From Nannochloropsis salina CCMP1776 (Eukaryota > Sar > Eustigmatophyceae > Eustigmatales > Monodopsidaceae): DNA of 64,000 nt. The notes under the pieces are model-generated. The model did not search any database and was not told where the DNA came from. It saw only the letters and a list, made by a program, of their open reading frames with translations. The position numbers and the translations under genes are program-made. Numbering within the stretch: position 1 is the stretch's first letter; each line of letters opens with the position of its first letter. Positions 4,726 to 64,000 of the stretch are shown one piece after another. The stretch lies in contig SDOX01000006.1 of the NCBI GenBank assembly GCA_004565275.1, positions 186,001 to 250,000 of the forward strand, in the 5' to 3' direction.

Positions 4726-7700
4726 TTACAACACGCGTATCATGGTTCCCCCGTCTTCAAAGTCCTCCTCCTCATCCCCTTCCTCCACTCCAGCACCTCT
4801 GATCTCTTTCCTCGCAGCCCAATCTTCTCTCCATTGACTACGATTGCTAGGTGGCTTGACGGTGAAGGCTGACGCGCGGCGATCACGCGTATAGTAAGAG
4901 CGTTCCCCTGCGGTAGCAGCTTTCGAAAGATGTTCATACTTGATATGAAGGTTGTCAGGCAGCAGGTCGTAACGGGTGATAATTCCGGTAACCTGCAGGA
5001 AAGGAGAGATAAAAAATTAAAAAAAATGGAGATGTCAGGTGGCGGGATAATGATTGAAGAGGGACATGTCTTCTAAAGCATGAGCTCATAGAGGAGTCTC
5101 TCCCCCCCCCAAAGTAAATCTGAGTATTTTTTTTGACAAAAAGAGACACTAAAATACAAGTGCACCATGTATAACACAAAAGGGGCCGGCCAACACACGC
5201 GAATAATGGGACCCGCCCGTCAGTCCCTAGGGTCTCCCAGGGGTACCTGGTTGTGACTATTGACGACACAGAGGTGTCGTAGCCCCATGGTGCGGAAGAG
5301 CCGGTAGGTCCTCACCAGGGAGGCAGTCTCGTTGATGCAGTAGGGCGCAGTGTTCATGACGGGCCGCAAATCGATCACACATTGCCGGTCCTGGGAAATG
5401 AGGGCGTGTGGTCGGGGAAGAGCGAGGGAGGGAGGGAGGGAGGGAGGGAGGGAGGGAGGGCAGTAGCTTAAACATTTGAGCGTTCAGGCAGCCCGAAGGA
5501 CTTGGGCGCTTCTTGATGGTTCTTGCCCCTAGTTTCCTCCCCTGCTTTCACCTTACCTCGACGGTAATTCTGATGTCCTGAATGTTGGGATAGCGGGGAT
5601 AAATCTTCTCCAGGGTCGGCCAGTCCAAGAGAGGTGAGAACAGGCGACCTTTCTCCCGGTGAGAGCTCTCGCTCAAGGGGCTGAAGGTGTCAGGGTGAGT
5701 GAAGGCCTTGTGCTGAGAGGAGGGTGAGGAAGAGGAAAGGAAGGAGAGAAGGAGGAGGTAAACAGAAGGGAAAACATGGAAAAGAAGAAGGAGTGCTACC
5801 AAAAAGAGTGCATGTCAGAAGAAGAAGGAGTGCTACCAAAAAGAGTGCATGTCAGCATTCGCAACCCTGGCTGACCCAGGTTCCTTTCTCCCCCCCGCTT
5901 TCTTCCCTCCCCCCAACCTGCAGAATCACGCAGAGCGCCTTCCTGAGGACCGTGCCCACCAACACGTTGCCGTCCTCTGCGTTCAAGACCGGGAAACAGT
6001 CGTGCTCGGTGGAGGCCAGACTGTCGTAGATGGTGCTGACCCGTTCGACGCGACGGAAGGTCTTTGGGAGAAGAGGGAGAAATGGCGTCCATGAGTGTAC
6101 GCTAAGAAAAGAAAAATAAGCAGAAGGTGCCGAGGGACCGAGCATTGTTGAAGGGAGAAAGAGAGGGAACAAATAATGCGGGAGCATCTAGGCGGCCCAC
6201 GTCATAAGAGGGGCAACGAATGCAACATGTATGGACCTGATCCATTCAAACCCATCCATCCATCCCTCCCTCCTCCTTTCTCCGCCCTGTCTCCAATTAA
6301 TCTGAGTTATCAACGCCCATCTCCATACTTTCCTCCCCTCCCTCCCTCCCTCCATCCCGCCCTCCCGCCCTCCCGCCCTCCCGCCTGCCCCACCTTCGGA
6401 GACGCACTCATGATCTCCGCAGCGATCATGTTCTTCCTGGCGGCAGGGGGCATGTCGGGTTCCAAGACCGGGTATCCTTTCAGGCGGGAATGAATGTCGT
6501 ACAGCGACTCACCGAACAGGTTGCCCACCCTGCAAGGGAGGGCGCGAAGAAAGGGAGGGAGGAGGGGAGAAGGGGGGNNNNNNNNNNNNNNNNNNNNNNN
6601 NNNNNNNNNNNNNNNNNNNNNNNNNNNNNNNNNNNNNNNNNNNNNNNNNNNNNNNNNNNNNNNNNNNNNNNNNNNNNCCGGGCACTGAGTTAGACAGAGC
6701 CGTGCCTGCCCTCCACCTGATATTGACACCTTTTCGACCTGCGGCACCCTGTTCTCCTGGCAAGTCTCTCCTCCTTCCCTCCTACCTTGGCCCTCCTCCC
6801 CTCCCTCCCACCCTCCCTCCCTCCCTTCCTACCAGCGCGCCGCCATGAGTGTGATCATGAGGGGTACTACGTATTGCATGTCTCCTGTCGCTTCGAGGAG
6901 GATCACGGTCAGAGAAATCGTCATCCGAGCCATACCTCCCAGGACCGCCGCCGCTGGTCGGGGGGGGGGAGGGACAAACGTGGGAAGAGGTAATGGTGTA
7001 TGTGAGGAGATTCAGGGACGACCACTTCAGGCGTAAGCCTAAGAAAAGGACAATGGAAGGATGAGGCCAAAAGCGAGCACTCACCACCCACAAGTGCGTA
7101 GGTCCCGGAATCCGCAAAAGTCCCTGTGGCGACATGTGCAAAAACGTGAATGTCCACGGTATCTCAGAAGACGCTACCGGTGGCAAGCACGCAGACAGGA
7201 CAAGGTACCCGCACGCGCGTCCTCTCCCCTTTTCTGCCCCCTCGTCTCCTCCATCAGCCTGGTGCAAAGTCTTCTCTGTCTACCTTCTTCCCTCCCTCCC
7301 TCCCCTCCCTCCCTCCCTCCCTCCCTCCCTCCCTCCCTCCCTACCATTCGCCCCATCCATCACATGCAAGAGGTGCCCGAACAACCTGCCCAGAGCCGCC
7401 CCCGACAAGAGGGTGGGGACAAAGAGCCCGGACGGAACCGCCGAGCCGTAGGCCCATATTGCCATGCCGAAGAAAGGGAAGAAGTAGAGGATCAAGGCGC
7501 CCGCCGAGAAGGATGGGTAGTGGGTGGAGCCGCTCTCTCGGAAATGGAAGACTGGATCCGAGCAGGGGAAAGGCGGTGGAGAGAGAGCGCATGGACGGCA
7601 TCAGGCCCGAAAAATGCGTCATGCTTTCCCTCCCCTTGCTTGTCCTCCCTCCCTCGGTCCCTCCCTCCTTCTCTCTCCCCCCCCTCCTCACGTTGCTTGA

Positions 7701-10700
7701 TGGCCGTGTCAGGGTCCGTGAAGAAGAGGGAGGCGAGCTCGTTGTACTCCTCACCGGCCTTGCACCGGAAAGGAACCAGTTTCATAGCCAGGGCCTGATC
7801 AAACGCGAGGGAGAAGATGAGACGAGGCACATACAGGGAGGCCCGCACCATCTTTTGGAGTCGACCACGTCCGTTTCCTCCCTCCCTCCCTCCCTCCCTC
7901 CCTCCCTCCCTCCCTCCCTACCCTCTCCTGCTCCGTCCATCCGTCCGTGGCCATGGCCCCCGAGGAGGGCAAAGGCGTGCATTTCACCCAACAGAGGGGA
8001 AGGAAATAGGAAATAAAGGTCATGGCGGCACACACAGCCACCACCTCCAGGCACTGTCGCCGTGGACAGGGTTGGAGACGGCGCATCCTCCACCGCGTCA
8101 ACCGCTCGTTGCTCCGGTTAAAAAACGCCCCCAAGAGACCCCCCAGGCAGCCGATCAGGACGAAGAGGGCGAGCTCCCACACGCTGTAGTTCCCTTCCAC
8201 CCCCTTCAAACTCGTGAATTTCCCAAAGGAGAACATCTTGGTCGCGTCGGGGATGCCCCAGGCTTCCTCGGAAGTCTTGATCACCAAGAGCTGCAGGGAA
8301 GGGTAGGAAGCCCACGGCGGAGGGGAAATAAATATTGCAGTCCGTCCAGGCACCCGTTGCCATGCCCCCCAGGAATGTACCCTTTGCTCCCTCCCTCTCT
8401 CCCTCCCTCCCTCCCGCCCTCTCCCACCGTGAAGGCCGTGAGCAAGGCACAGAGGAAGGCCCTGTAGGTGAGTTTGCTGCTCCAGTACGAGGCTCCTTCT
8501 TCCAGGGAGAAAAGGACCCCCCCCAAGGGGGCGCCGAAGGCCGAAGCCACGCCCGAGGCAGCCCCGCAGGAGACGAAGTCGCGCTGGGAGGGAGGGAGGG
8601 AGGGAGGGAGGGAGGGAGGGAGGGAGGGCGCAGGGTACCTTTTCACGATCGTTCCTGAAGTCTTGCATGCGCGAGAAGGAAGTATCCACGCCCCACAGCG
8701 AACTGCGGCCCTGCGACACCCCCGCCGCCACCACGGCGCCTGTCCACAGGGCGAGTCACGGCAACAAAAGGTTGGACCGAGGGAAGGGAAGAGTAGGAGG
8801 GAGGAAGGGATGGAGGGAGGAAGGGAGGGCAACCTACCAATATGCACCATGGGACCCTCCTTTCCGGCTGGAAGACCGCTTCCGACAGTGAATATGACGC
8901 CCACAAGCTTGCAGAGCATGGTCTTGACCCGAACCACCCTTTGAAGCGAGAGGAGGAGGTGGGGAGGGAGGGAGGGAGGGAGGGAGGGAGGGAGGGAGGG
9001 AGGAAGGGGGGGAAAGGGACGGCACGAATGTTATCGCGTGAGCCTAGCGTCACCACACCTTTCCTACACATCAGACAAGCTTCTCTCCCCCTCCCTCCCT
9101 TCCCCTCTACCCTCCCACGCGGGGTGCCTCCAGCTCCCCTGCCCTCCCTCCCCCCCTACCTCGGAAGGCTGACGCCGTTCAGGAAGGCTTTGATCTCGGG
9201 AATGCCGCTCCCGGCCGCAACAGGCTCCGCCCAGACCGCGGCATTGGCGATGAGGACGTACAGGAGGTTCAGGCCGAGGTAGGAGAAGAAGGAGGCGCCA
9301 GGAAGACGGGTCCCGGCCACTTCCTCCTGCAAGAGGCCTGGAGGGAGGGAGGGAGGGAGGGAGGGATGGAGGGAGGGAAGGAAGGAAGGAAAGGGACGCG
9401 TGGAAGTAAGGCCATAGCCTGGGACGGAGGAATGCCTATAAACAACTTTGCAGAAACCTACGTGTAACGGTTCCGAGTTTGAAACGGACGAGCCGTTGCG
9501 TGGTGTACGTCATCGCCACGCCGAGGAGGCCAATCAGGACGCCGGTCAGTGCTGTAAGGAGCCAGCGCTTGACCGCGCTGGGGAGGAAAGAAGGAGGAAG
9601 GGGGGGCATGAGCGAGGAACCTCATGAGAATTGAAGGAGGTGGGCAGAAAATCCGTTACGCGCCCGTTCCATTCCACACTTTGGGCGAGGGCGCCCTACG
9701 TACCGTTTTTTGCCCGTCGTCCAGAATTGACTCTGCTCTCTATGGACCCTTTGTAGCTGTGCGACCGAGACATCGTTGGGACCAAAAGAAAGCGTGAGAT
9801 ACACGCCGTTCGCCTCCCCTCCCCCCCTTCTGCCCGCCCTCCCTCCCGCCCTCGCTACCTCATGCGTGCGCCACACCTCGCTGTCCTCCGGCTCGTACGT
9901 CAAGGAGTCTGGGTACGATTTCCCGTGGTAGGGACCCCGCTTTTTGGATGCAGAAGTAGACAAGGGGTGAGGATAGGGCTTTATCGCTCCTTCATTTGAG
10001 GAGGCCTCCTTGCTACCCCTTCCACCTCCTCATCACGATATCGCCACATGCATCTCTTGCCGTTATTCTACCTCTGCCAGTGGCATCCCCCCTTCCCCCC
10101 CGCCTCACTCACCTCCACATGCCGGTCTGGATCAATGTATTTGCTCAGCTTCCCCATTTCTTGCTGGAAGGCAGCGCCGGCGGCGCCTTGCGTTGTGTCT
10201 AGGGGGGGAAGGAGGAGGGGCTCTTGGTGCTGGACCTGGAAGGGTGGACCCCGCGGCGTGCGTTTCTTTTTGGCCGTTGACGTCGACCCGTTGGCTAAGA
10301 AGGGCGCCTTTCAAAAGTGGAAAAGAGGATTTGCATGATGGTGGAGGTTAGGGCTCCTGGCATCGATCGAGTTGCCAGCCCCCTGGGCCTTTTGCAACTC
10401 GTTCCGTGTCCGTCACGCTTTGCTTGAAGGTTTTCGACCTCTCGACACGTACATACCTCCTCCGCCTCTGTTTCCTGTCCGCCATCGCTACTGTGCTGTG
10501 TCTTGATCGCCGTGGGGGCTGTTGTCGTATCTGCTTCTCCGCCCCCCACTGTTCGATCTAGGGCCCCGAGACCCGACTCAGGAGATGGTGTCACACGCTG
10601 CTGCAGCTGCTGCTGTCTCGGTTGTTGTTGTTGACGTCGCCAAACGCTGACTGTGCTGGCATGGCTGCTGAAGCTACTGCCACTGCCACTGCTACTGTTG

Positions 10701-10795
10701 CTGCTGTTGCTGCTGCTTCTCCCCTTCGCGGCAGACGGGGGGGGAGACACTTGCAGCTGAATGGCAGGATGCGAGAGCGGGTCCCCGTCATCCAT
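4726..10795 (-). CDS. CLC-type Cl-/H+ exchanger with two CBS domains, about 19 exons
   Basis: Voltage-gated-type chloride channel family member, predicted to act as an anion/proton antiporter. Start ATG 10795 ([11 protein letters not shown]), stop 4726-4728. After a Ser/Gln-rich cytosolic N-terminus come [25 protein letters not shown] (9160-9300), [16 protein letters not shown] (8840-8945), [15 protein letters not shown] (8460-8583), [15 protein letters not shown] (7345-7560) and the late spans (6837-6960). Two CBS modules follow, encoded at 5395-6070 and 4726-5400. The gating Glu in GKEGP and the Glu pair in FSLEEG are the residues that mark exchangers rather than channels. The Ser of GSGIPE suits chloride rather than nitrate, by analogy with plant CLCs. 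Junctions tested are GT-AG and in frame. The 100-N gap (6578-6677) falls in an intron. Plant CLC-c/d and animal CLC-7 are the nearest types I can name. Confidence 0.93.
5425..5460. repeat. GGGA array near a CLC 3' splice site
   Basis: Pure GGGA tandem repeat on the plus strand. On the sense strand it reads CCCT, about 45 nt before the 3' splice site of the exon encoding the start of the second CBS module. Confidence 0.9.
5782..5855. repeat. Tandem duplication, period 37 bp, in a CLC intron
   Basis: Two copies in direct order of a unit containing AAGAAGGAGTGCTACC and AAAAAGAGTGCATGTCAG, identical as far as I can read. They lie in the intron between the two exons of the first CBS module. Exact identity implies a recent duplication or an assembly artefact. 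Confidence 0.85.
6578..6677. other. Assembly gap of 100 N in a CLC intron
   Basis: Exactly 100 N, the usual placeholder for unknown length. Flanking exons (AARW at 6837 and VGNLFGE ending near 6531) join in frame, so no CLC coding sequence needs to be missing. G-rich and C-rich tracts flank the gap, which probably explains the failed assembly. Confidence 0.95.
7289..7341. repeat. CCCT array directly after a CLC 5' splice site
   Basis: About 50 bp of CCCT on the plus strand. On the sense strand it is GGGA, starting within the donor sequence GTAGGGAGGG of the exon encoding [11 protein letters not shown]. Confidence 0.9.
7877..7919. repeat. CCCT array directly after a CLC 5' splice site
   Basis: Pure CCCT on the plus strand, sense GGGA. 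It starts inside the donor GTAGGGAGGG after the exon that ends with EQER. Confidence 0.9.
8584..8638 (-). repeat. 55-nt CLC intron made of a CCCT array
   Basis: The sense strand reads GTACCCTGCG, then about 40 nt of CCCT, ending CCAG. Both sides join in frame as …NDREK|RDFVSCG…, the conserved CLC sequence, which fixes the boundaries. The intron length is not a multiple of three. See finding. Confidence 0.9.
8961..9003. repeat. GGGA array before a CLC 3' splice site
   Basis: GGGA on the plus strand, CCCT on the sense strand. It sits about 20 nt before the 3' splice site of the GKEGPMVH exon. The same intron begins with a sense G-rich tract near 9100-9160. Confidence 0.9.
9340..9380. repeat. 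GGGA array at a CLC 3' splice site
   Basis: On the sense strand this is a CCCT tract that ends at the acceptor region of the exon encoding [10 protein letters not shown] and GSGIPE. It provides the polypyrimidine tract. Confidence 0.85.
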
Positions 10796-11468
10796 AGTCC
10801 GCCCTGTGGTGTTGAATAGACCAGAAATGCACGGAATGAGTGGATAGCACGGTATGGAAAGGGACAACAATCCAAAAATGGTCGTGCAAAAAACAGCATT
10901 TACGTTCGACGCTCCTAGTCCGAAACGCCGCTCCTCAGGTAGGGGGATACAAAAGGGCGACACCGACGATTTGTTTTGAGCGAGACACGAAGTTCTAAGG
11001 GCGCACACACACGTACATTCCTTGGATGCGAACTGAGAAAAGCGATGGAATGCTCACGGTCAAGCATTGTTTCGGTACGAGTATTTTTGGTTTGCATTTC
11101 TCAGTGGGCAGGAACATGATCGTGATAAACCGACATCAAAGCAAATCGAAGGCGGTTTAGTTTATTGAAAAGTCTCACCCAACACCGGAGCTGCACGTGA
11201 CATCGCAATAAGCATTTATTTTCTTTGGGAAAAAATGTGTCTTTGTTCGTTTGTCCATCATTTGGGAGGCAGGATTAAAAGCGTTCGGTGTACTTCGTGC
11301 TGCAGCCCCAGTATCTCGTGCCTCCCACGTCGAATCTCGTAGGGTTGCTAATTTCACTGGCATAAACTCAACACGCATCTCCCCTCCAACCATCGATTTT
11401 TGCGCACAAGAAACGTCGGCTACCTTGGTCTGGTCCTATTGGGAAAGCTTGGTGTCATGCCTACAAAA
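10796..11468. other. Intergenic: CLC upstream region and deacetylase 3' flank
   Basis: Separates two minus-strand genes. An open frame continues upstream of the CLC ATG to 11008 and could be 5' UTR or an N-terminal extension. Nothing else was recognised. Confidence 0.45.
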
Positions 11469-13904
11469 TCATTTCATTCCTGCCATCCGCCGCGTCAGGG
11501 CCGTCACCAGCGCCTCGCATTTCTTGATTACGGCATCCTGTACACCGGGATATGAATTTTCTCAGTACGCACATCTCCATGCTCCCTTGCTTTCTCTACG
11601 CCTTCGCCTACCTGGTGCGGCTGCAGCTCTTGGTACCCCCACTGGTGGACATCCGTTAGCATGCAATCTCGCACTCCAGTCCGTCTCTTTGTCAGTTCCT
11701 CCACGATCGCATGCCCGCAGAACGGCACGTACAGGTCCGAATACCCGCCCTGCATCCGAGCACGGAAAGGGAGACGGCGTGTCAATAGGAGGTCATGCGC
11801 GTCGATGCGACCAGGGCATCCCCCCGGTCCCTCTGACCTGGCGCTCTCTTACCCCCCCGCCCCTACCTCGTGCACGTAGACGATCCTCCCGTCGCACACG
11901 TCCTCCGCCAGCCCGTTCAGTTTTTGCCCCAGGGTTCGGAAGTGCTCCGAGGAAAGCATCATGGTGGCGAGGGGATCGAGGTAGCCGGCATCATACCCGG
12001 AGGAGACCAAGAGGAGCTCAGGAGCGAAGGCCTAGGAGGAAAGGAAAACGGCATGCGAAAACGCGGCAGGTCCAAGGGGGGGGGCGTGAGGGGCAGAGAG
12101 GGTAAGAGAACACTCGGGAGCTTTAAAGCCCTTTGCGGACTCCACCCGGGCAAAAGCTTCTCCCCGGAACTATCCCGGCCCAACCCTACCACGGCGTTTG
12201 CCCTTCATTTCCGCGACACACTATCTTGGCAAACGTAGACTCAACGCACACTTTCCTGCACAGTCTCTGCGTACCTTATCCCCCCCCCTCAAGCCCCCTC
12301 CCGGCATTGCCTTCGACTCCCTTGCTCTCTTGCCCTCCCCCCCCCGCGACGTCCCCCCCCCTCCCTCCCTGCCTCGCCTCCCCACCCGTCCACGATCTCG
12401 CCTATCATCCTCTCTTCTACGCACCCGGACAGCGGGGAGGATGACTCGGTCAAAGGCCTCGAAGTAGGCGCCAGAGCCGCTCCCGGGGGGGAGGGGGATG
12501 TTGATGGTGGTGCCTTCCCCCTTCCCGGTCCCATTCTCTTCCACGTAACCTGTCCGCGCCGGATAGTTGCTGTCTTGGTGGATGGAGATAAAAAGCACTG
12601 CCTCGTCCTCGTAGAAAGCTTGCTGGAAGGGAGGGAGGGAGGGAGGGAGGGAGGGAGGGATGGATTGTGACTCTAGGGATTTATCGACCCAGGTGCTTTC
12701 CCGTACGTTCGCACGCGGCAAAAAGGGCAAAAGAAGGAAAAGAGGAAGGGAGGGAGGAAGGAAGGGAGGGAGGGAGGGAGGGAGGGAGGAACAGGAGCAT
12801 ATCGCGCGGCCCCTCTTCCTACCTGAGTGCCATTCCCATGGTGCACATCATAGTCGACGATGGCCACGCGCTTCAGCCCTTGCTTGACCCGGGCGTGCAT
12901 CGCCCCCAGAGCCACGTTGTTGAAGAGACAAAAGCCCATCCCTCGGTCTTTTTCGGCATGGTGCCCCGGGGGTCGGACCAAACAGTAAGCGTTTCGGACT
13001 TTGTCGCCCGTTTCCGTCCGACCCGTGACCACCGCGTCGATGGCGTTCAACACCCCGCCCACTGCCAGACAGGCAATTTCGTACGATCCCGGGCCAAAAG
13101 TGGCAAAATCCCCCGCTTCTCCTCCCTGGGCTCGACTCAGACTTTGGATCTTGCCCACGTACTCCAGGGTGTGGAAACGGGTGAGTTCCTCCACGCTGGC
13201 CAAGCGCGGGGGGACGCGGACCAGGCTGGAGGATCCAGAGACGGCGGCGACAGGAATGGAGACGGGCAAGGGCGGCATGGCACGTATAAAGGGGATAAAA
13301 TGGAATGTGGGGGGTGGACGGGGGAGGGGATAAAGCGGAGGGACAGAGCAATGGAAGGGAGTGAAATGGGGTATGCGTACACGTGTGCGTGAATCCGCGC
13401 GGGAGGGCGGGGGCAGGACTTTATGGTAGGGCGTGCCCGGTGAATACATAGCATACACGAAAGACGAGGAGAGTGCAGAGAACAAAACACGAGCAGCGAG
13501 GAAGAAAGATGTCCGTTGCGATCGTCACGATTACGAACGCGTCGTTCCCGGTTCCACGTACCAGTCGAGCAGACCACTTGCATCCAACAAGTTGTGCAGG
13601 CGGCGTTTCGACTCCGGAGATTCAAAGTGTCGCGTTGGTTGGATCCATTCACTGCATATAGATAATATCGAAATAAAATGTGGAAGGCGTGTCAAACAAG
13701 ATGGGGCCTGTTTTTCAAACGCACAAGGCCGGGGCGAAATGCGACGTACTTCCAAGTATATTTGCCGGCGTGATGCCACATGTATCGTTCATGCCAGACA
13801 TAGCCTGTCGTGCTTTTGGTGAGAGCAGACGAAAGCTTTGTGCCAGCGCCCGCATTCGCAGCCATGGTTCTGTTCCCAATGGCCTTTACTCCGTCTCTGT
13901 CCAC
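11469..13904 (-). CDS. Class II-type histone deacetylase, 7 exons
   Basis: Zn-dependent lysine deacetylase of the arginase/deacetylase fold. The first exons are 13904-13750, 13651-13562, 13225-12823 and from 12622 on; the last ends at the stop 11469-11471. N-terminal TGYVWHERYMWHHAG matches the class II start (…DERM..H..G). The catalytic core follows: RPPGHHAEKDRGMGFCLFNN (general-base His pair), VDYDVHHGNGTQ (Zn-ligand Asp and His), SSGYDAGYLDPLA (third Zn-ligand Asp) and HEGGYSDLYVPFC. All key residues are present, so it should be active. Start ATG 13904 or the in-frame ATG at 13865 are both possible. It resembles plant HDA8/HDA14 and bacterial acetoin-utilisation-like deacetylases, so a non-histone or organellar substrate cannot be excluded. 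Confidence 0.92.
12628..12661. repeat. GGGA array at a deacetylase 3' splice site
   Basis: Sense strand CCCT ending CCCTTCCAG, then the exon encoding QAFYEDEA. The array is the polypyrimidine tract. A second, degenerate array lies in the same intron at 12747-12789. Confidence 0.88.
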
Positions 13905-28236: not shown

Positions 28237-30760
28237 TCACTTCATTCTGATGACCCGCCCCTCCTCCCTTCCCTCCCTCCCCCCTGCCCTTCCTCCCCCT
28301 CCTTCGCCCTTCCCGTTCAGAAATCCTGTCCTTTCCCCCACCCCCACGGGGAGAGCCTCCCTCCCTCCCCCCTTCTCCCCTCCACGGACCGCCGCGCTGC
28401 CTTCCTGTGAGAGCCCCACCGCGGCTTGCGTGCTGCTGAATTGAAGCCGAAGCCTTTCGTAATGGGCCAGCTCCTCTGCGGCCACGGAGGGGGCGACTTT
28501 CGTGGCGGCCTCCAAGAGATCTTCCTGGTAGACCCGCGCCACGCATTCTTCAGGGGATAAATGCGACAAAAATGTTCCCAGGCTCAACTTCCCTCCCCCC
28601 GTCCCACCCTCATTCCCCTCCTCCCCTCCCTCGTTCAAGACCGCCAGCTCCTCCTCCAATTCAGCCACCCGCCGGCGCAATGCCCGCATCAAAGCCTGGG
28701 CGGCCACGGCGGAAAAGTCGGCCCCAGTAAAATTCGGGGGAAGTCGGGAAACCACGTCGGACAAATCCACGTCCTCGCCGAAGGGAAACTTCCGGGTCGC
28801 CGCCTGCAGGATGGCGCGTCGGCTGCCCGCGTCGGTGGTGTGCCCCAGGTACAAGAGTCGGTCGAAGCGGCCGGGGCGCAGCAAGGAGGAATCCAAGAGG
28901 TCTGGGCGGTTCGTCGCACCGATGACAAAGACGTCCTTTCTCTCTGTTCCTCCCTCCCGCCCTCCTCCCCCCCCCCCCTCTCCCGAGGAGACCGCATCCA
29001 GTTCCACCAGCAGCTGCGCCACCACACGGTCCATCACCCCTCCACTGTCGCTACCTCGGCCACGCTGCGGTGCCAAGGAGTCCAACTCGTCGAAGAACAA
29101 GACGGCAGGCGCCGCCGCCCGGGCCCGGGCAAACGCTTGACGCACGTTCCGTTCGCTCTCCCCGACGTACATGTCCAAGAGCTCCGGTCCCTTTACGGAG
29201 AGGAAGGCGAGGCCGCACTCCGTGGCCACTGCCTTCGCCAAGAGGGTCTTGCCCGTCCCTGGTGGCCCGTACAACAGGATCCCTGCGCGTCGCTTGACCC
29301 CGGCGGTGAATACCTCTGGGGGAGGGAGGGAGGGAGGGAGGGAGGGAGGGAGGGAGGGAGGNNNNNNNNNNNNNNNNNNNNNNNNNNNNNNNNNNNNNNN
29401 NNNNNNNNNNNNNNNNNNNNNNNNNNNNNNNNNNNNNNNNNNNNNNNNNNNNNNNNNNNNNTCCGCCCCGCCCTCCGCCCCTCCCTCCACCCCTTCCTCC
29501 TCCATCGCCAGGGTCAACATGTCCAGCATCAGCGACGACCGGCTTCGCCCGTCCCGGCCTGACAGCTGCCAGGGAGCAGGCGGCGCCCCCCTGGGAGCAG
29601 TCTCCTTAACTCCCTCCCCCTTGTCTCCCGAAAGGGGCGCGGCGGTCGTGCTCCCGCTTTCAGGAGGGAGGGACGGGAGGGTGGGAGGGAGGGAGGGAGG
29701 GGCCAAGGGAGGGCTTTCCAAGGCGCGGGGCACGGGGACCGCGATCAAGTCCCCCACGGTGAGGAGGCGGGGGGAGGAGAAAAAGTGGGCAATAGCGCCG
29801 GCAAAATCCTCGCGTCCGTGTCGGTCGGGGTTTTTCACGGGGGCGATGACAGCATGGCCGGCCAAGGGGGGGCGGGGAAGGGAGGAGGCGGGAGGGGGGG
29901 GGTGGGAGGGGGGGGGCGGAGGGCGGGGCGGAGGAGAAGCGACGGACGCGGAAGCGACAAGGACGCAGGCTGCCCGTTGCGTTGAAGAGCAGAAGGGGGG
30001 GGACGTAAAGCACGTCCTCCTCTTCCACCTCCTCCCCCTGCTTCCCCTTCCTCCCTCCATCCCCCTCCTTCCCACCCGTTCCTCTCTCCTCCTCCGCCGC
30101 CGCCTCCTCCTCCTTCTGCCGAAGCACCACCGCCAGCACCTCGTCTTCGTCCATGGCGACGATCCGACACACCCTTTCCCGTCCTCCTCCGGCGTCCCCT
30201 GCTTCCGTGCCTGTCGCCGCGCCCCCGCTCTCACCACACCACCTCCTTCCCTTCCCTCTCTCCTCCACGGAGGTCAAAGTGATCCAGGCCCCACTCACCA
30301 TCCCAAGCCGCGCCAATGACCGCGTGCGGGTTGCCACTTCCGTCATTGGGTCCCGGAGCATGGTGCAGGCAGCCTGGGAAGGCTTGCGGTCGGCGGGATA
30401 AGGGGGGGGGCTGAGAGCGGGCGGGGCGAGAGGGACGGCGTCGCTGGGTGCTAAGGGAGGATGGCGCACAGGTTGCGGCAACAGTCTGGCCAGGAACGTA
30501 TGCTCAGCCTCGTCGGTGTTGCTGAGAAAGGAGGTGGAGGAGGAGGAAGAGTCCTGAATGGGATTGGAAGGGCCGTAAAAAGAGGACGGGATGTGGACGC
30601 GTCTGCGGGCAGTCTGGGAGTCTCCCGTGATAGGTGCAAGCTTGCTGGCGGCAGTGGAGGAGTAAAATATACTAAGTTGCGGCAAGGCACCTTCGCAGGC
30701 GCTACCTGGTCGAGAGGAAGGCGGTGATGGTGATGTTGTGGTGGGAGGAGGAGAAGACAT
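28237..30760 (-). CDS. PEX6: Peroxisomal AAA ATPase PEX6-like, interrupted by an assembly gap
   Basis: With PEX1, PEX6 extracts the import receptor PEX5 from the peroxisome membrane. Start ATG 30760. The N-terminal part reads [25 protein letters not shown] and [18 protein letters not shown], the last typical of PEX6. The C-terminal (D2) ATPase is complete from [16 protein letters not shown] (Walker A) through [35 protein letters not shown] (Walker B), [22 protein letters not shown] (sensor and Arg finger) and [17 protein letters not shown]. Between the halves lies the 100-N gap; the D1 ATPase and the start of D2 are not present, so the gap hides real exons. The frame also changes within a C-rich homopolymer tract around 29880-29935, probably a base-count error. 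A CCCT array precedes the D2 exon's acceptor. Confidence 0.88.
29321..29361. repeat. GGGA array at the PEX6 D2 3' splice site
   Basis: Sense strand CCCT ending CCCCCAG, then the exon beginning with the codons for VFTAGVKRR. The array runs directly into the assembly gap. Confidence 0.9.
29362..29461. other. Assembly gap of 100 N inside PEX6
   Basis: Exactly 100 N. The true length must be greater, because about 300 or more residues of PEX6 (D1 domain and N-terminal part of D2) are missing between the flanking coding sequences. Confidence 0.9.
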
Positions 30761-45075: not shown

Positions 45076-46790
45076 ATGGCGACACGGGATGTCACGAAAC
45101 GATTTGTGGAGCTACGAGTCGAAATAAAGGTATTTTGGGCGTGAATTGCCTAATCTGTTGGATTCGCTCTAGCATGGGAAAAACCCTCCCTATTCCCGGT
45201 CTTTTCACATGCTTTTCACGTGCCTTCCACATGACTCCTCCTCGTGCATCAAGTTTTTAGCGCGTGTCCACATTTTGCACCCCTACACCATGCGCTCTCA
45301 TCATTCGGAGATTCTGCACGGCATCTGGCGTGGGTTCGGTTGTGTCACGTTTTTTTGATTCCTCCACCGTGCTTCCAAGGCCCTATCCTCCCCCCCTCCT
45401 CCACAAATTCTCTCATCTCCATGACGTCCAACTTCTCCTTCATACCTTGTATTTAACATGCCACAGAAAGCCCGGCCTACGCATCGTTCGAACGACAGTG
45501 CCCTTTCTAATTCAATAAATGGAAGAGGAAGTGCCCACCTCTTGGGGGATCCGAAAGACCTGGAGAAAGGTGGGACAGACTGGCAAGCGGCTCGCAGCCA
45601 GCTCCCACCGCTGTGGGTGGACGTGGTCGATCGGGTGGGTGAAGAAGCATGCCAAGTGCGGGGAAAATATCCAATGCCCCCGCGTCATCCCTCTGTCCAG
45701 GATGCCTTGTCCTTCCCCCCCTTGCCCGGCTTTTTGACTCGTCGCATCGCCGGCCGCCCCTGGTGTTCCCGACTCACAGGTGGACGAGGCAATCCGAAAC
45801 ATCCAAGAGCAAATGAAGGAACTATCCAGGCTACACCGGAAGCGGCTCCTGGTCTCTTTCGACGAAAAGGCGGAAGCTGGCAAAGAGCAGGAGATCCTGG
45901 CCTTGACCGAGGCCATTACGGAGCAGTTCCGGGTCGTGGAAAGAAAATTAACCGCTGTGGGGGGGCAGGTGGAGTGTGAAAGCGACGCCGAGGTACCAGC
46001 GGGTGGAGGCGGAGAATTGGACATTGGGGGGAGCTACCCCATCGGAACGAGCGTGTCACACCTCCTCTCCTCCTTCCCTCCCTCCTCCACGCCCCCATGC
46101 ACAGGTCAAAGTACGTCGCAATCTCCAACGATCTATGGCCTCCAAGACGCAACGGCTCTCACACGCGTTCCGGTTTCAGCAAAAAGACTACCTGAAAAAG
46201 CTCCGGGCGCAGAAGGAGGGGGCGATGGGTGGGGGTGAGTTTGCGTTCTTGGACAAGGACGAAGGCGGGGAACCAGTCCTAGTGCCAGACAATCGTTCAG
46301 AGACCGGCTTCCGACAAGCCCAGGTGACGGTGCTCGAGAGCACGGACGCGCTGGTGCAGGAGCGTGACTCGGAAATAGCGCGTATCGCCGAGGGAATCGA
46401 AGCGCTCGCCCACGTGATGAAACGGCTAGGGGAGCTCGTCATCGACCAAGGCTCCGTCCTGGATCGGATCGACTACAACATCGGTACGCAGGATATCCGG
46501 AGAGTGCTCCTGTCTGTCTCCCTGTCGCGTCAGGCCGTTGCATGGAAACAAAGCCAGCCCTCCTTCCCTCCCTCCTTCCCTCCCTCCTTCCCTCCCTCCT
46601 TCCCTCCCTCTTCCCCTACCACTTCTCAGACATGGCCGTCGATCGCGTCCAGCAAGGTGTCACCCAACTGGAAGCAACGGAAAAAATCCAGAAACAAGGA
46701 GGAGCAACCTCCTGTATCCTTACTCTCATCTTTCTGATCTTCGCCCTCCTTGTGGTGCAGGTGATCAAGCACGCGCCTCGGAAACGGTAG
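45076..46790 (+). CDS. Qa-SNARE, syntaxin-16/Tlg2-like, 5 exons
   Basis: Membrane-fusion SNARE of the trans-Golgi/endosome. Exons 45076-45129, 45467-45634, 45780-45968, 46105-46483 and 46630-46790 give 316 residues with all junctions in frame. The short first exon encodes MATRDVTKRFVELRVEIK, matching the N-terminus of syntaxin 16 that binds the SM protein VPS45. Next come PPLWVDVVDRVDEAIRNIQ and QMKELSRLH, the Habc-region helices with RRNLQRSMASKTQRLSHAFR and QQKDYLKKLRAQ, and the SNARE motif (ERDSEIARIAEGIEAL to VLDRIDYNID), with the central Gln in LVIDQGSVLD. A C-terminal anchor (LTLIFLIFALLVVQV) ends the protein. The last intron has a CCTCCTTC array before its acceptor. Confidence 0.93.
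46559..46611 (+). repeat. CCCTCCTT array before a syntaxin 3' splice site
   Basis: Sense-strand C-rich array with period 12 (CCTCCTTCCCTC), about 20 nt before the acceptor of exon 5. It fits the splice-anchored pattern in a plus-strand gene. Confidence 0.85.
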
Positions 46791-61577: not shown

Positions 61578-62868
61578 GTCTCAAGGATTGTATGTGGGAA
61601 GTGTCGCGATGTGGTGCTGGTATTGTCCGTGACAACAAAGTCGAAAGCGTAAATTATTGCCTAACACTTCTACAAGGTGGCCAAGGCTTTCAAGCCGCAG
61701 ACGACGACACGGCGTTGGCGAGCCTGCCACGACAACAACAGGGTTTTAAGACACTGACGGTGTCTGGAGGTGCGGGGCTTGGGGTGAAACGTGCCAAAAG
61801 GGGTTGTCAGGTCAGGCCTTCAGGGAGAAGCCAGGGAGGTGGCCTGCCTGCAGGAGGAGTATGTTGGGAAGGAAAAAGTGAGTAAAACTGCTGGAAATCA
61901 TTGTCTTCATGTCTTTAATGGAGCACACTTTAAACATCCTGCCAATATGCAGTGCCATGGCGTAATTATAACTTCATCCACTTGGAACACCGAGTGCTCA
62001 TGTGGTGACGCTAGATTTCCTGTCATAAAAGTTCGCCACGCGTAAAAATGCAAGATGCTAATATGCCTGCACTGGACAGCATGTACACTACATATGCACA
62101 TAAGAGAAACCAGAAGCCGCAAGCCGCCCCGTCCCCGTCACCCTTTATGACTTTCGGGCTCGAGATGAAGGAGATCCTATGGCCGCAGGTCCACGTCGGC
62201 GCCGGCAGTTGACGAACAGTGTGACGTCACAATCTTTCTCGGAGTTCCGAGCCCCGCCTTGCGGGCCTACGGAGGCAAAGGTTGACTCGCAACCTCTCAT
62301 AGGGAGCACTATGATAAGAAACATATTTCTAGGAACGAAAAAGACAAAATACGCTGTACAAGCTACGTAAAAGCATTAGAGGATACTTGCCAAAGTACGG
62401 TCTGTTTTCATGTCATCGATATTCAGCTGCAAGGCTGAGCTGCATGGAATATATTAACCGAAGAAAAAAAACGCTTTCTCTTGTACCTATCGTCTTCTTC
62501 CCTTACACTTCCGCTCCATACATGCTAAGGAAAGTATTAAACCCGCGCCAGATTCATATGAAACCACCAGACAGATACCACATACAAAAAAATCCCATCC
62601 TTCCCAAACCTGCCCACAATCCATGAGGCCACGCAAACACGACATACATCCTCACGGCTCTTCAGTCCTTACCCCTTCATTCTTTCTGCGTTCCAGACAT
62701 CTGATCCATGAGAAGACGAATGCAGTCAAACCAATTTCCATCAGACTTCTAGGACTTCAGGCGTGTGAGTGAACAGACACTGCCACCATCGATCCTTCAT
62801 TCCCTCCACAATTTCTTCACATGGGTCCTTGTCATTTTCCTTTCCCTGGTCACGTCTCAAAGGAAAGC
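61578..62868. other. 1.3 kb gene-free region
   Basis: Upstream of the hydrolase and downstream of the last minus-strand gene. AT-rich in its right half. No coding signal, RNA gene or repeat was recognised. Confidence 0.45.
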
Positions 62869-64000
62869 TTACTTCTTGGCGACCTTCTTGGCAATATTCG
62901 CAAAACTACCTTTGCCGGACGCCGCGGGGGCCTTGGCAGACAGGAGGGGAGACGCCTTAGCTGCTGCAGGGACTGCTTTTGGTGCCGGCGCGGGGGCCGT
63001 TGCAGCCTTCTTGACTGCCACAGCCGCTACTTTTTGGGGCGCGAGTGCTGCTTTGATCCCCAGAGGTTTCTTCGCGGCGGGAGCAGGCTGGGCAGCGGGC
63101 TTGGCAGCGGGCTTGGCAGCGGGTTTCGCGGCGGACTTGGCAGCGGGCTTGGCAGCGGGCTTGGCAGCGGGTTTCGCGGCGGGCTTGGCAGCGGGTTTCG
63201 CGGCGGGTTTGGCGACTGATTTCATCGCGGGCTTTACCGCAGCCTTGGCCTTCAGAGCAGGGGTGGGCCTGGCAGCAGGAGCTGTGGGAGCCCCGCCCCT
63301 GGCCGGGGCGGAGAGAGGGCCGAGGACGACGGGAGCCGCCGACTTTTTGGGAGGGGCGACAGCATCAGGCTGTGGTGGAAGTGCAAGCGAAAGGGTATGG
63401 TTGAGAAAAAGGAGGGTGGGATGCACCTGGCGCAACAGGGGACCAGACAGCAAATAGACTGGGTGTCACGACCAGTCCCAAAACCGTACGGAAGGGCATG
63501 AGACGTTGAAAGCACTGCCTGTCGGGCAACCTACCACGGACGCCACCACCTTAGCCGCCTTGACTCGGCCTTTCTTGCCCCCGCCGACCTTGAAAGCGGG
63601 CGTCACGTCTACGCCTCCACCGCTGGACGAGATCCTCCTCGGTGCGGCGGAAGGGATGGGGACGCCAGAAGAAAGGATGGTGCCTGTTACGGCCGATACA
63701 GCCGCCAAGCCCACCAGAGGAATCCCCGCCAAGACATCGATAAGGGGGTTCCCACTGACCAGCACAACCCCGGCTTCAGCCGCCAAAGCTGCGGCGGCGA
63801 CCGCAAAGAAGGTAGCGGGAGGCGTGCGAAGCACTCCAGTGAGGATGGGTAGGAGTGCTGGTGCTTGCTCGATGGCAATGGGCGCCAATGTCTGCAGGAT
63901 GAGTTCTTGGTTCTTCTCCGCCAAGGATAAGAGCTCTAGCTCCTCCACCAAAGGCAGCAACTTCTCCAGATCGCTCAGTCTGAGACCAAGCTCTTCCAAT
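62869..64000 (-). CDS. Plastid DUF1118-like protein with Ala/Lys/Pro tail, 5' partial
   Basis: Runs off the right edge of the window, so the start and targeting sequence are missing. Exons 64000-63535 and 63369-62869 join as VASV|PDAVAPPKK in frame. The visible N-terminal part has leucine-rich LEELGLRLSDLEKLLPLVEE and LLSLAEKN, then two hydrophobic segments (TFFAVAAAALAAEAGVVLV; GIPLVGLAAVSAVTGTIL), similar to DUF1118 plastid proteins of algae. The second exon encodes a long tail of AAKPAAKP repeats, resembling histone H1 or bacterial HU tails, and ends KGSFANIAKKVAKK. The combination suggests a membrane protein with a basic, perhaps nucleic-acid-binding or thylakoid-surface tail. Family assignment is tentative. 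Confidence 0.6.
63070..63230. repeat. Degenerate repeat encoding AAKP units
   Basis: Plus strand repeats GGCAGCGGGCTT and GGCGGGTTTCGC blocks of 12 nt, encoding (AAKP)n on the minus strand. Units fall into two slightly different 12-mers arranged in higher-order groups, suggesting expansion by duplication. Confidence 0.8.

Follow-up and report, generated by a model that had tools for sequence, protein, structure and literature searches.

Introns in and around a 64,000-nucleotide (nt) window of the Nannochloropsis salina CCMP1776 genome (positions 186001-250000 of the 1,382,544-nt contig C72) carry arrays of one tetranucleotide, which reads either GGGA or CCCT on the sense strand of the host gene. 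We consider it probable that these arrays arose by slippage from the base biases of the introns, that their direction is filtered mainly at the 3' splice site, and that the driver of their growth is regional. The initial annotation of the window had proposed a strand rule, with GGGA tracts directly after 5' splice sites (donors) and CCCT tracts directly before 3' splice sites (acceptors), and had suggested that such introns fold into a hairpin that brings the splice sites together or form a G-quadruplex at the donor. In our analysis, the 3' rule holds for a known kind of reason, the 5' rule is soft at best, and the pairing mechanism is without support.

The sequence analyzed consisted of 260 kb of contig C72 joined around the window, with a GC content of 54.1% (54.88% in the published N. 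salina CCMP1776 assembly, PMC6953503). Genes were predicted with a small hidden Markov model trained on the 260-kb region itself. Its coding states carried a fixed penalty on array bases, equal for the GGGA and CCCT orientations, and splice-site scoring was limited to donor positions -3 to +6 and acceptor positions -4 to +1, so the intron regions under test do not enter the gene model. Initial settings returned 1,116-1,468 introns, mostly spurious, and were replaced; a weak array penalty let exons extend across arrays, and the penalty was raised, again the same for both orientations. As a side effect, the raised penalty turns some arrays that belong to true exons into spurious short introns, such as two of 42 and 51 nt in gene 62. 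The resulting models comprised 80 genes and 285 introns. A filter on exon and intron length, on reading frame and on the coding strength of the two flanks removed 106 introns before counting (59 with a weak coding flank, 18 open in frame, 15 short introns and 14 with a short exon; the minimum intron length was 55 nt), leaving 179 filtered introns in 38 genes. Robustness was checked by comparing nine gene-finder settings, for which the filter ran without the frame test.

The arrays are nearly confined to introns. We counted 76 arrays of at least 12 nt in 47.3 kb of modelled introns (1.61 per kb), compared with 5 in 83.4 kb of intergenic DNA (0.06 per kb) and 15 in 129.3 kb of exons (0.12 per kb). 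Chance falls far short of explaining this 27-fold difference in density between introns and intergenic DNA. Some of the 285 modelled introns are false, yet the filtered set shows the same density (49 arrays in 30.4 kb, 1.61 per kb). AGGG/CCCT accounts for 96 of the 155 arrays of at least 12 nt with repeat units of two to four nucleotides, counted over the sixteen commonest classes; the next-commonest class, AGG, has 22 of its 24 arrays in exons. Shorter runs, of at least 8 nt, are enriched 11-fold (5.39 per kb in filtered introns versus 0.48 per kb in intergenic DNA). The longer arrays exceed what composition predicts, as expected for slippage: filtered introns hold 29 arrays of at least 16 nt, where an order-3 Markov model built from the introns themselves expects 0.35.

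Two base biases mark these introns. Their starts are G-rich, with G falling from 0.40 to 0.31 across positions 6-60 of the 179 filtered introns. Their ends are rich in C and T over about 60 nt, with C over T and a purine fraction of 0.24-0.33 from -3 to -60 (filtered introns long enough for each bin), which is the pyrimidine-rich stretch upstream of the acceptor AG that characterizes a U2-type polypyrimidine tract. In the 3' segment, AG occurs less often than GA (100 versus 137, p=0.02), a difference not seen in the 5' segment (568 versus 596).

Next, we compared the orientation of the arrays at the two intron ends. In the 3' halves of the filtered introns, CCCT outnumbers GGGA 60:4 among runs of at least 8 nt, 14:4 at 12 nt or more and 9:4 at 16 nt or more, and the last ratio was 12:2, 13:4, 13:5, 11:3, 12:5, 12:5, 10:3, 10:4 and 12:7 in the nine settings. 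The 14 CCCT arrays of at least 12 nt end 2-49 nt before their acceptors. All four GGGA runs of this length in 3' halves were kept in the counts; for one of them it is certain, and for two probable, that the model merges two introns. The first of them is in intron model 28 (C72:118253-118663) of an ISWI-type remodeller gene. This model swallows an exon (the piece translates to VAGHKNPLQTLTLNYQGGI and fits a 17-residue alignment gap), so that the array in its "3' half" really follows a donor. Two others are in intron model 4 of gene 44, which, judged by eye, also seems to swallow an exon (internal TTTCCCAG), and the fourth, in gene 13, is doubtful. In the 5' halves, the GGGA:CCCT counts are 63:37, 19:12 and 8:8 at the same three lengths, and for runs of at least 16 nt the nine settings gave 9:9, 8:9, 11:9, 8:8, 10:8, 11:9, 9:5, 10:5 and 12:7. 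The strand asymmetry at acceptors is real; that at donors shows most clearly in the short runs, the long arrays having little or none. Thus, the proposed rule stands at 3' splice sites, and for long arrays at 5' splice sites a strict rule is not supported.

Genome-wide counts beside splice-site words, made over 26.5 Mb in 103 contigs, addressed the same contrast. In the donor-word test, a 16-nt array had to lie within 24 nt of the word, and the mirror-image control was the pattern written backwards and read from the reverse column; for word-first patterns, the forward column was used alone and read as one match per word start. After the donor word AGGTRAG we found 47 GGGA and 5 CCCT arrays, and after AGGTRYG 28 and 17 (50 and 34 for AGGTRYG on both strands, made unique by hand). 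Since the exon side, before the word, shows the same excess (19 GGGA and 1 CCCT for AGGTRAG, 20 and 7 for AGGTRYG), we read it mostly as the words' own purine bias; the summed ratios are 75:22 after and 39:8 before the words (p=0.52). The mirror-image control gave 45 GGGA for the 75 observed and 11 CCCT for the 22 (difference p=0.69). Behind donors, GGGA and CCCT arrays both show a modest enrichment of about 1.7- to 2-fold, and neither control revealed an orientation effect beyond that of the donor word itself. On the acceptor side, a CCCT array followed by CAGG occurs 366 times versus 114 for the mirror image (3.2-fold), whereas GGGA followed by CAGG is not enriched (306 versus 299; Fisher p=2e-18 for the contrast between CCCT and GGGA). 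The upstream control for CCCT at AGGTRYG is not clean, as most of its matches have the acceptor-like form CCCT...CAG/GT. At about 12 sites genome-wide, a CCCT array is followed, in most of them, by CAG/GT with a donor-like GTRYG directly behind the acceptor. The likeliest reading of the CCCT...CAG/GT sites is that they are acceptors in front of exons beginning with GT, although zero-length (recursive) splice sites are possible.

The distribution of the arrays is uneven, both between genes and along contigs. Between genes (p=0.0004), arrays occur in 11 of 25 filtered introns of the ISWI-type gene, 7 of 10 of a CLC-type gene and 5 of 8 of gene 44, and in 0 of 9, 0 of 9 and 0 of 8 of genes 8, 11 and 4. 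Along the 17 contigs of at least 590 kb, to which this count was limited, we copied by hand from complete listings 81 unique arrays next to donor words; 76 lie in the outer halves of their contigs and 56 in the outer quarters, figures that count array sites and not arrays per intron. Of the 26 places of the control word ACAGGTAAGT, 19 lie on contigs of known length; 12 of these 19 fall in outer halves (p=0.001 against 76 of 81) and 5 in outer quarters. The word is no commoner than its reverse (26 versus 47) and therefore controls for position only, not for intron density. How far contig ends correspond to chromosome ends can be judged from 20 contig starts: 16 are written as N, CCCTAA repeats open C14 and C70, CCTAA opens C78, and C1 has other sequence at its start, so only a few contig ends are shown as telomeres.

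Within the window, the main array carrier is the CLC-type chloride/proton exchanger gene on the minus strand (4729..10795), a self-trained gene model with no stops and about 18 introns. Its protein matches CLC-7 (7bxu) with 446.7 bits in phmmer over residues 274-955, and both this protein and that of the deacetylase gene described below align with solved structures, the aligned stretches including most junctions. Visual inspection points to two errors in the CLC model: exon 6237-6286 is likely to be spurious, and the last intron probably has its donor near 5245. Six CLC donors, at 7344, 7921, 6832, 8427, 6393 and 5917, are modelled within 1-5 nt of the figures in the initial annotation, and a GGGA-type or G-rich tract follows each. 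Read in sense, GGGA arrays of 54 nt (7289..7342) and 43 nt (7877..7919) lie 2 nt past the donors of introns 11 (7124-7344) and 9 (7795-7921). GGGA-type tracts also lie past the donors of intron 8 (8291-8427; tract 8387..8421) and intron 13 (6530-6832; tract 6791..6830), the latter containing an assembly gap of Ns, and a GGGA/GGGC-type tract lies past donor 6393 (6336..6385). Before acceptors, CCCT arrays at 8586..8628, 8962..9003 and 9340..9366 end 2, 23 and 2 nt from the acceptors of introns 7 (8584-8638), 5 (8939-9159, whose 5' end is G-rich) and 4 (9338-9461), and in intron 17 (5391-5556) an array at 5424..5460 lies 33 nt before the acceptor. The HDAC6-like deacetylase gene, also on the minus strand (11472..13278, four introns, aligning with HDAC6-like proteins), has a CCCT array at 12628..12660 that ends 5 nt before the acceptor of intron 1 (12623-12822).

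These positions and orientations agree with the initial annotation, and the CLC introns that it listed obey its rule, but the list was selective, since CLC introns 6 and 7 and deacetylase intron 1 have CCCT on their 5' side. CLC intron 6 (8740-8837) begins GTAGGTTGCCCTCCCTTCCTCCC, with a CCCT-type tract at 8787..8829 shortly past the donor. The array of intron 7 starts 10 nt past the donor and occupies most of the 55-nt intron. In deacetylase intron 1, a 27-nt CCCT array (12763..12789) lies 33 nt past the donor and 140 nt before the acceptor.

Further arrays were located in three other genes. On the minus strand, a CCCT array at 29320..29361 ends 6 nt before an acceptor of an AAA-ATPase gene (Pfam AAA, E=1.9e-42), for which the earlier name PEX6 is a candidate label; its position and orientation were likewise as first described. 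On the plus strand, an imperfect CCCT array (46558..46610) precedes the last exon of a SNARE-type gene, earlier called syntaxin, whose SNARE domain (E=2.2e-5, 24.8 bits) scores just below the Pfam cut-off of 26.8; the gene finder read through this array, and the downstream acceptor was placed by eye. The ISWI-type gene (gene 29, C72:117515-127021) lies about 64 kb away and has about 30 introns with many arrays in both orientations. Its protein matches ISWI remodellers with 703.6 bits (best domain 549.8). Introns 6, 7, 11 and 26 of this gene have CCCT tracts starting 8-15 nt past their donors, and the spliced protein aligns to its relatives without a gap at these junctions; for intron 26, a 3-residue alignment gap lies about ten residues beyond the junction.

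CLC intron 16 contains a perfect 37-bp tandem duplication upstream of its acceptor (window 5782-5855). Three array-bearing introns contain gaps of Ns, namely the gap at window 6578-6677 and those in the intron models C72:121728-122054 and C72:175412-175819, and a C-rich tract or CCCT array stands at the edge of each. Array introns with such gaps are probably under-assembled. A minisatellite of the AGCGGGCTTGGC family, with 12/24/48-bp periods, lies at window 63082-63234 inside the predicted exon 62777-63456.

We hypothesize that the arrays are intronic microsatellites grown by replication slippage from two pre-existing base biases of the introns, and that these would supply the seeds: a G-rich stretch of about 50 nt past the donor and a C/T-rich stretch of about 60 nt, with C over T, before the acceptor. 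Selection would then act on direction chiefly at the 3' end. There, a CCCT array serves in effect as a polypyrimidine tract without AG; a GGGA array would destroy the tract and add an AG every four bases, and this would impose the direction filter at the 3' end. On the 5' side, neither orientation makes a GT, so both would be tolerated there. In other words, because the GGGA unit has an AG and no pyrimidine and the CCCT unit has neither AG nor GT, a strict 3' filter and little 5' filter would be expected, as seen. The available part of one report attributes strand asymmetry in the polypyrimidine tract to pyrimidine selection and avoidance of premature AG (PMC10946897). The soft 5' preference for GGGA would be inherited from the G-rich intron start. 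Finally, growth is strong in some genes and in outer chromosome parts and absent in other genes, which suggests that the driver is a regional mutational process rather than a need of splicing.

Several observations weigh against this explanation. The introns are ab initio predictions without RNA support, and several are visibly wrong; in addition, one intron of gene 4 that the filter dropped has an array. Of the runs of at least 8 nt, a larger share reaches 16 nt or more in introns, with 29 of 164, than between genes, with 2 of 40 (p=0.05), so that seeds explain most but not all of the intron excess, and something intron-specific may help the arrays grow. Measured against its mononucleotide expectation, AG shows no deficit in the 3' segment (1.19 times), which leaves the AG component of the filter with weak support. 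In the 5' halves, GGGA exceeds CCCT among runs of at least 12 nt in all nine settings (18:13 to 20:10), and the raw forward-strand counts after donor words also favour GGGA (47:5 and 28:17); a modest true 5' preference for GGGA is possible. Moreover, what we observe is the confinement, the biases, the asymmetries and the uneven distribution of the arrays, together with the lack of a pairing signal described below; slippage as the source of growth, selection on AG and the tract as the filter, and a regional factor such as recombination as the driver are what we infer from them.

Among the alternatives, the arrays could be multiplied splicing enhancers, in which hnRNP H/F-like or U1-linked factors would be recruited by G triplets at donors, and poly(C)-binding or U2AF-like factors by C triplets, so that a longer array would mean better splicing. 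The start of many arrays within tens of bases of splice sites fits this idea. However, 141 of the 179 filtered introns, including all 8-9 filtered introns of some genes, have no array of at least 12 nt, indicating that arrays are not needed for splicing, and clustering in outer contig parts is not what a splicing need would produce; we therefore regard this function as unlikely. Similarly unlikely is a reading in which intron arrays of the outer chromosome grow by a process tied to introns, vary fast between strains and tune the splicing of a few genes, such as the CLC and ISWI genes. Candidates for such a process would be the instability of R-loops or quadruplexes formed during transcription, or recombination at C-rich tracts that are transcribed. 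A regulatory role for G-quadruplexes formed by GGGA arrays in nascent RNA near donors appears improbable. (GGGA)4 and longer arrays fit the quadruplex motif, so that four G-runs with short loops near the donor on the RNA strand follow trivially wherever an array is present. Sense motifs occur at the 5' ends of 29 of 112 introns versus 16.7 in mononucleotide shuffles, and the available part of PMC9065059 describes quadruplex motifs as about 3-fold enriched near splice junctions, with the stronger enrichment on the non-template strand. Yet antisense motifs also exceed the shuffles (13 versus 4.1), and an excess on both strands is expected anyway from arrays in both orientations; the long donor arrays are not clearly biased to the sense strand (8:8).

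The hairpin proposed in the initial annotation, in which the two ends of one intron, G-rich at 5' and C-rich at 3', would pair and draw the splice sites together, is very improbable. The average intron ends are complementary in composition, and CLC intron 5 (8939-9159), one of the introns first cited for this architecture, does have a strong G/C-paired predicted hairpin (z -3.1 versus dinucleotide shuffles), a value that overstates the case because such shuffles break the separation of the G-rich and C-rich halves. Beyond this intron, a general preference for the own partner was not seen. The duplex energy between positions 6-56 and a 50-nt stretch before the acceptor averaged -27.3 kcal/mol for own partners and -26.9 (standard deviation 0.7) for permuted ones (z -0.55, 126 introns), and within genes swapped 3' partners pair slightly better (-27.9 versus -27.1 for own). 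Likewise, the end-to-end distance in the predicted folds of 60 introns was not shorter than in shuffles (21.2 versus 19.8, p=0.79). GGGA at the 5' end and CCCT at the 3' end of the same intron co-occur with odds ratios of 1.6 (at least 8 nt, p=0.22) and 3.2 (at least 12 nt, p=0.11), neither significant, and only 3 of 126 introns have both arrays within 60 nt of their ends. CCCT at both ends, as in CLC intron 7 and ISWI intron 5, makes such pairing impossible. In human LCAT intron 4, according to the available part of PMC2481429, an intron in which C-rich motifs were replaced by G-rich ones, a change said to abolish the stem-loop, was spliced like the wild type. Least probable of all, to the point of being hardly credible, is that array introns are recent insertions of a mobile, repeat-carrying introner element. 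One repeat type that is confined to introns and uneven over genes could suggest it, but an array-masked all-against-all BLAST of the 285 introns gave 6 short matches (21-57 nt) and no family.

Our preferred explanation, slippage from intron base biases, separates the direction rules imposed by splicing, which are clear here only at the 3' splice site, from repeat growth, which appears to be regional and not needed for splicing. The point that merits attention is that a single tetranucleotide is almost restricted to introns and concentrated in outer chromosome parts: as seeds, direction and chromosome position are separable, this genome offers a clean place to ask what makes repeats grow. In practical terms, the array introns of the N. 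salina genome, some of which enclose assembly gaps, may be incompletely assembled and wrongly annotated. No description of nuclear GGGA/CCCT intron repeats in Nannochloropsis was found among the open-access literature matches listed.

Overall, the proposed mechanism is ordinary and the distribution is unusual. Three known systems, each taken from the available part of its source, come closest. The polypyrimidine tract with AG avoidance in Drosophila and other eukaryotes (PMC10946897) shares with our arrays the 3' strand asymmetry and an AG count below that of GA; here, in contrast, the tract is C-rich and in some introns is an exact tetranucleotide array of up to 59 nt. The enhancers of human LCAT intron 4 (PMC2481429) resemble our introns in combining G and C triplets in a short intron, and a stem-loop of G-rich and C-rich parts was considered there too. 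Those are isolated motifs of tested function, whereas ours are long arrays, missing from most introns and known from sequence alone. Intronic short tandem repeats that affect splicing (PMC10027321) are, like our arrays, intron microsatellites near splice sites; unlike them, in N. salina one repeat type dominates and nearly none lies between genes.

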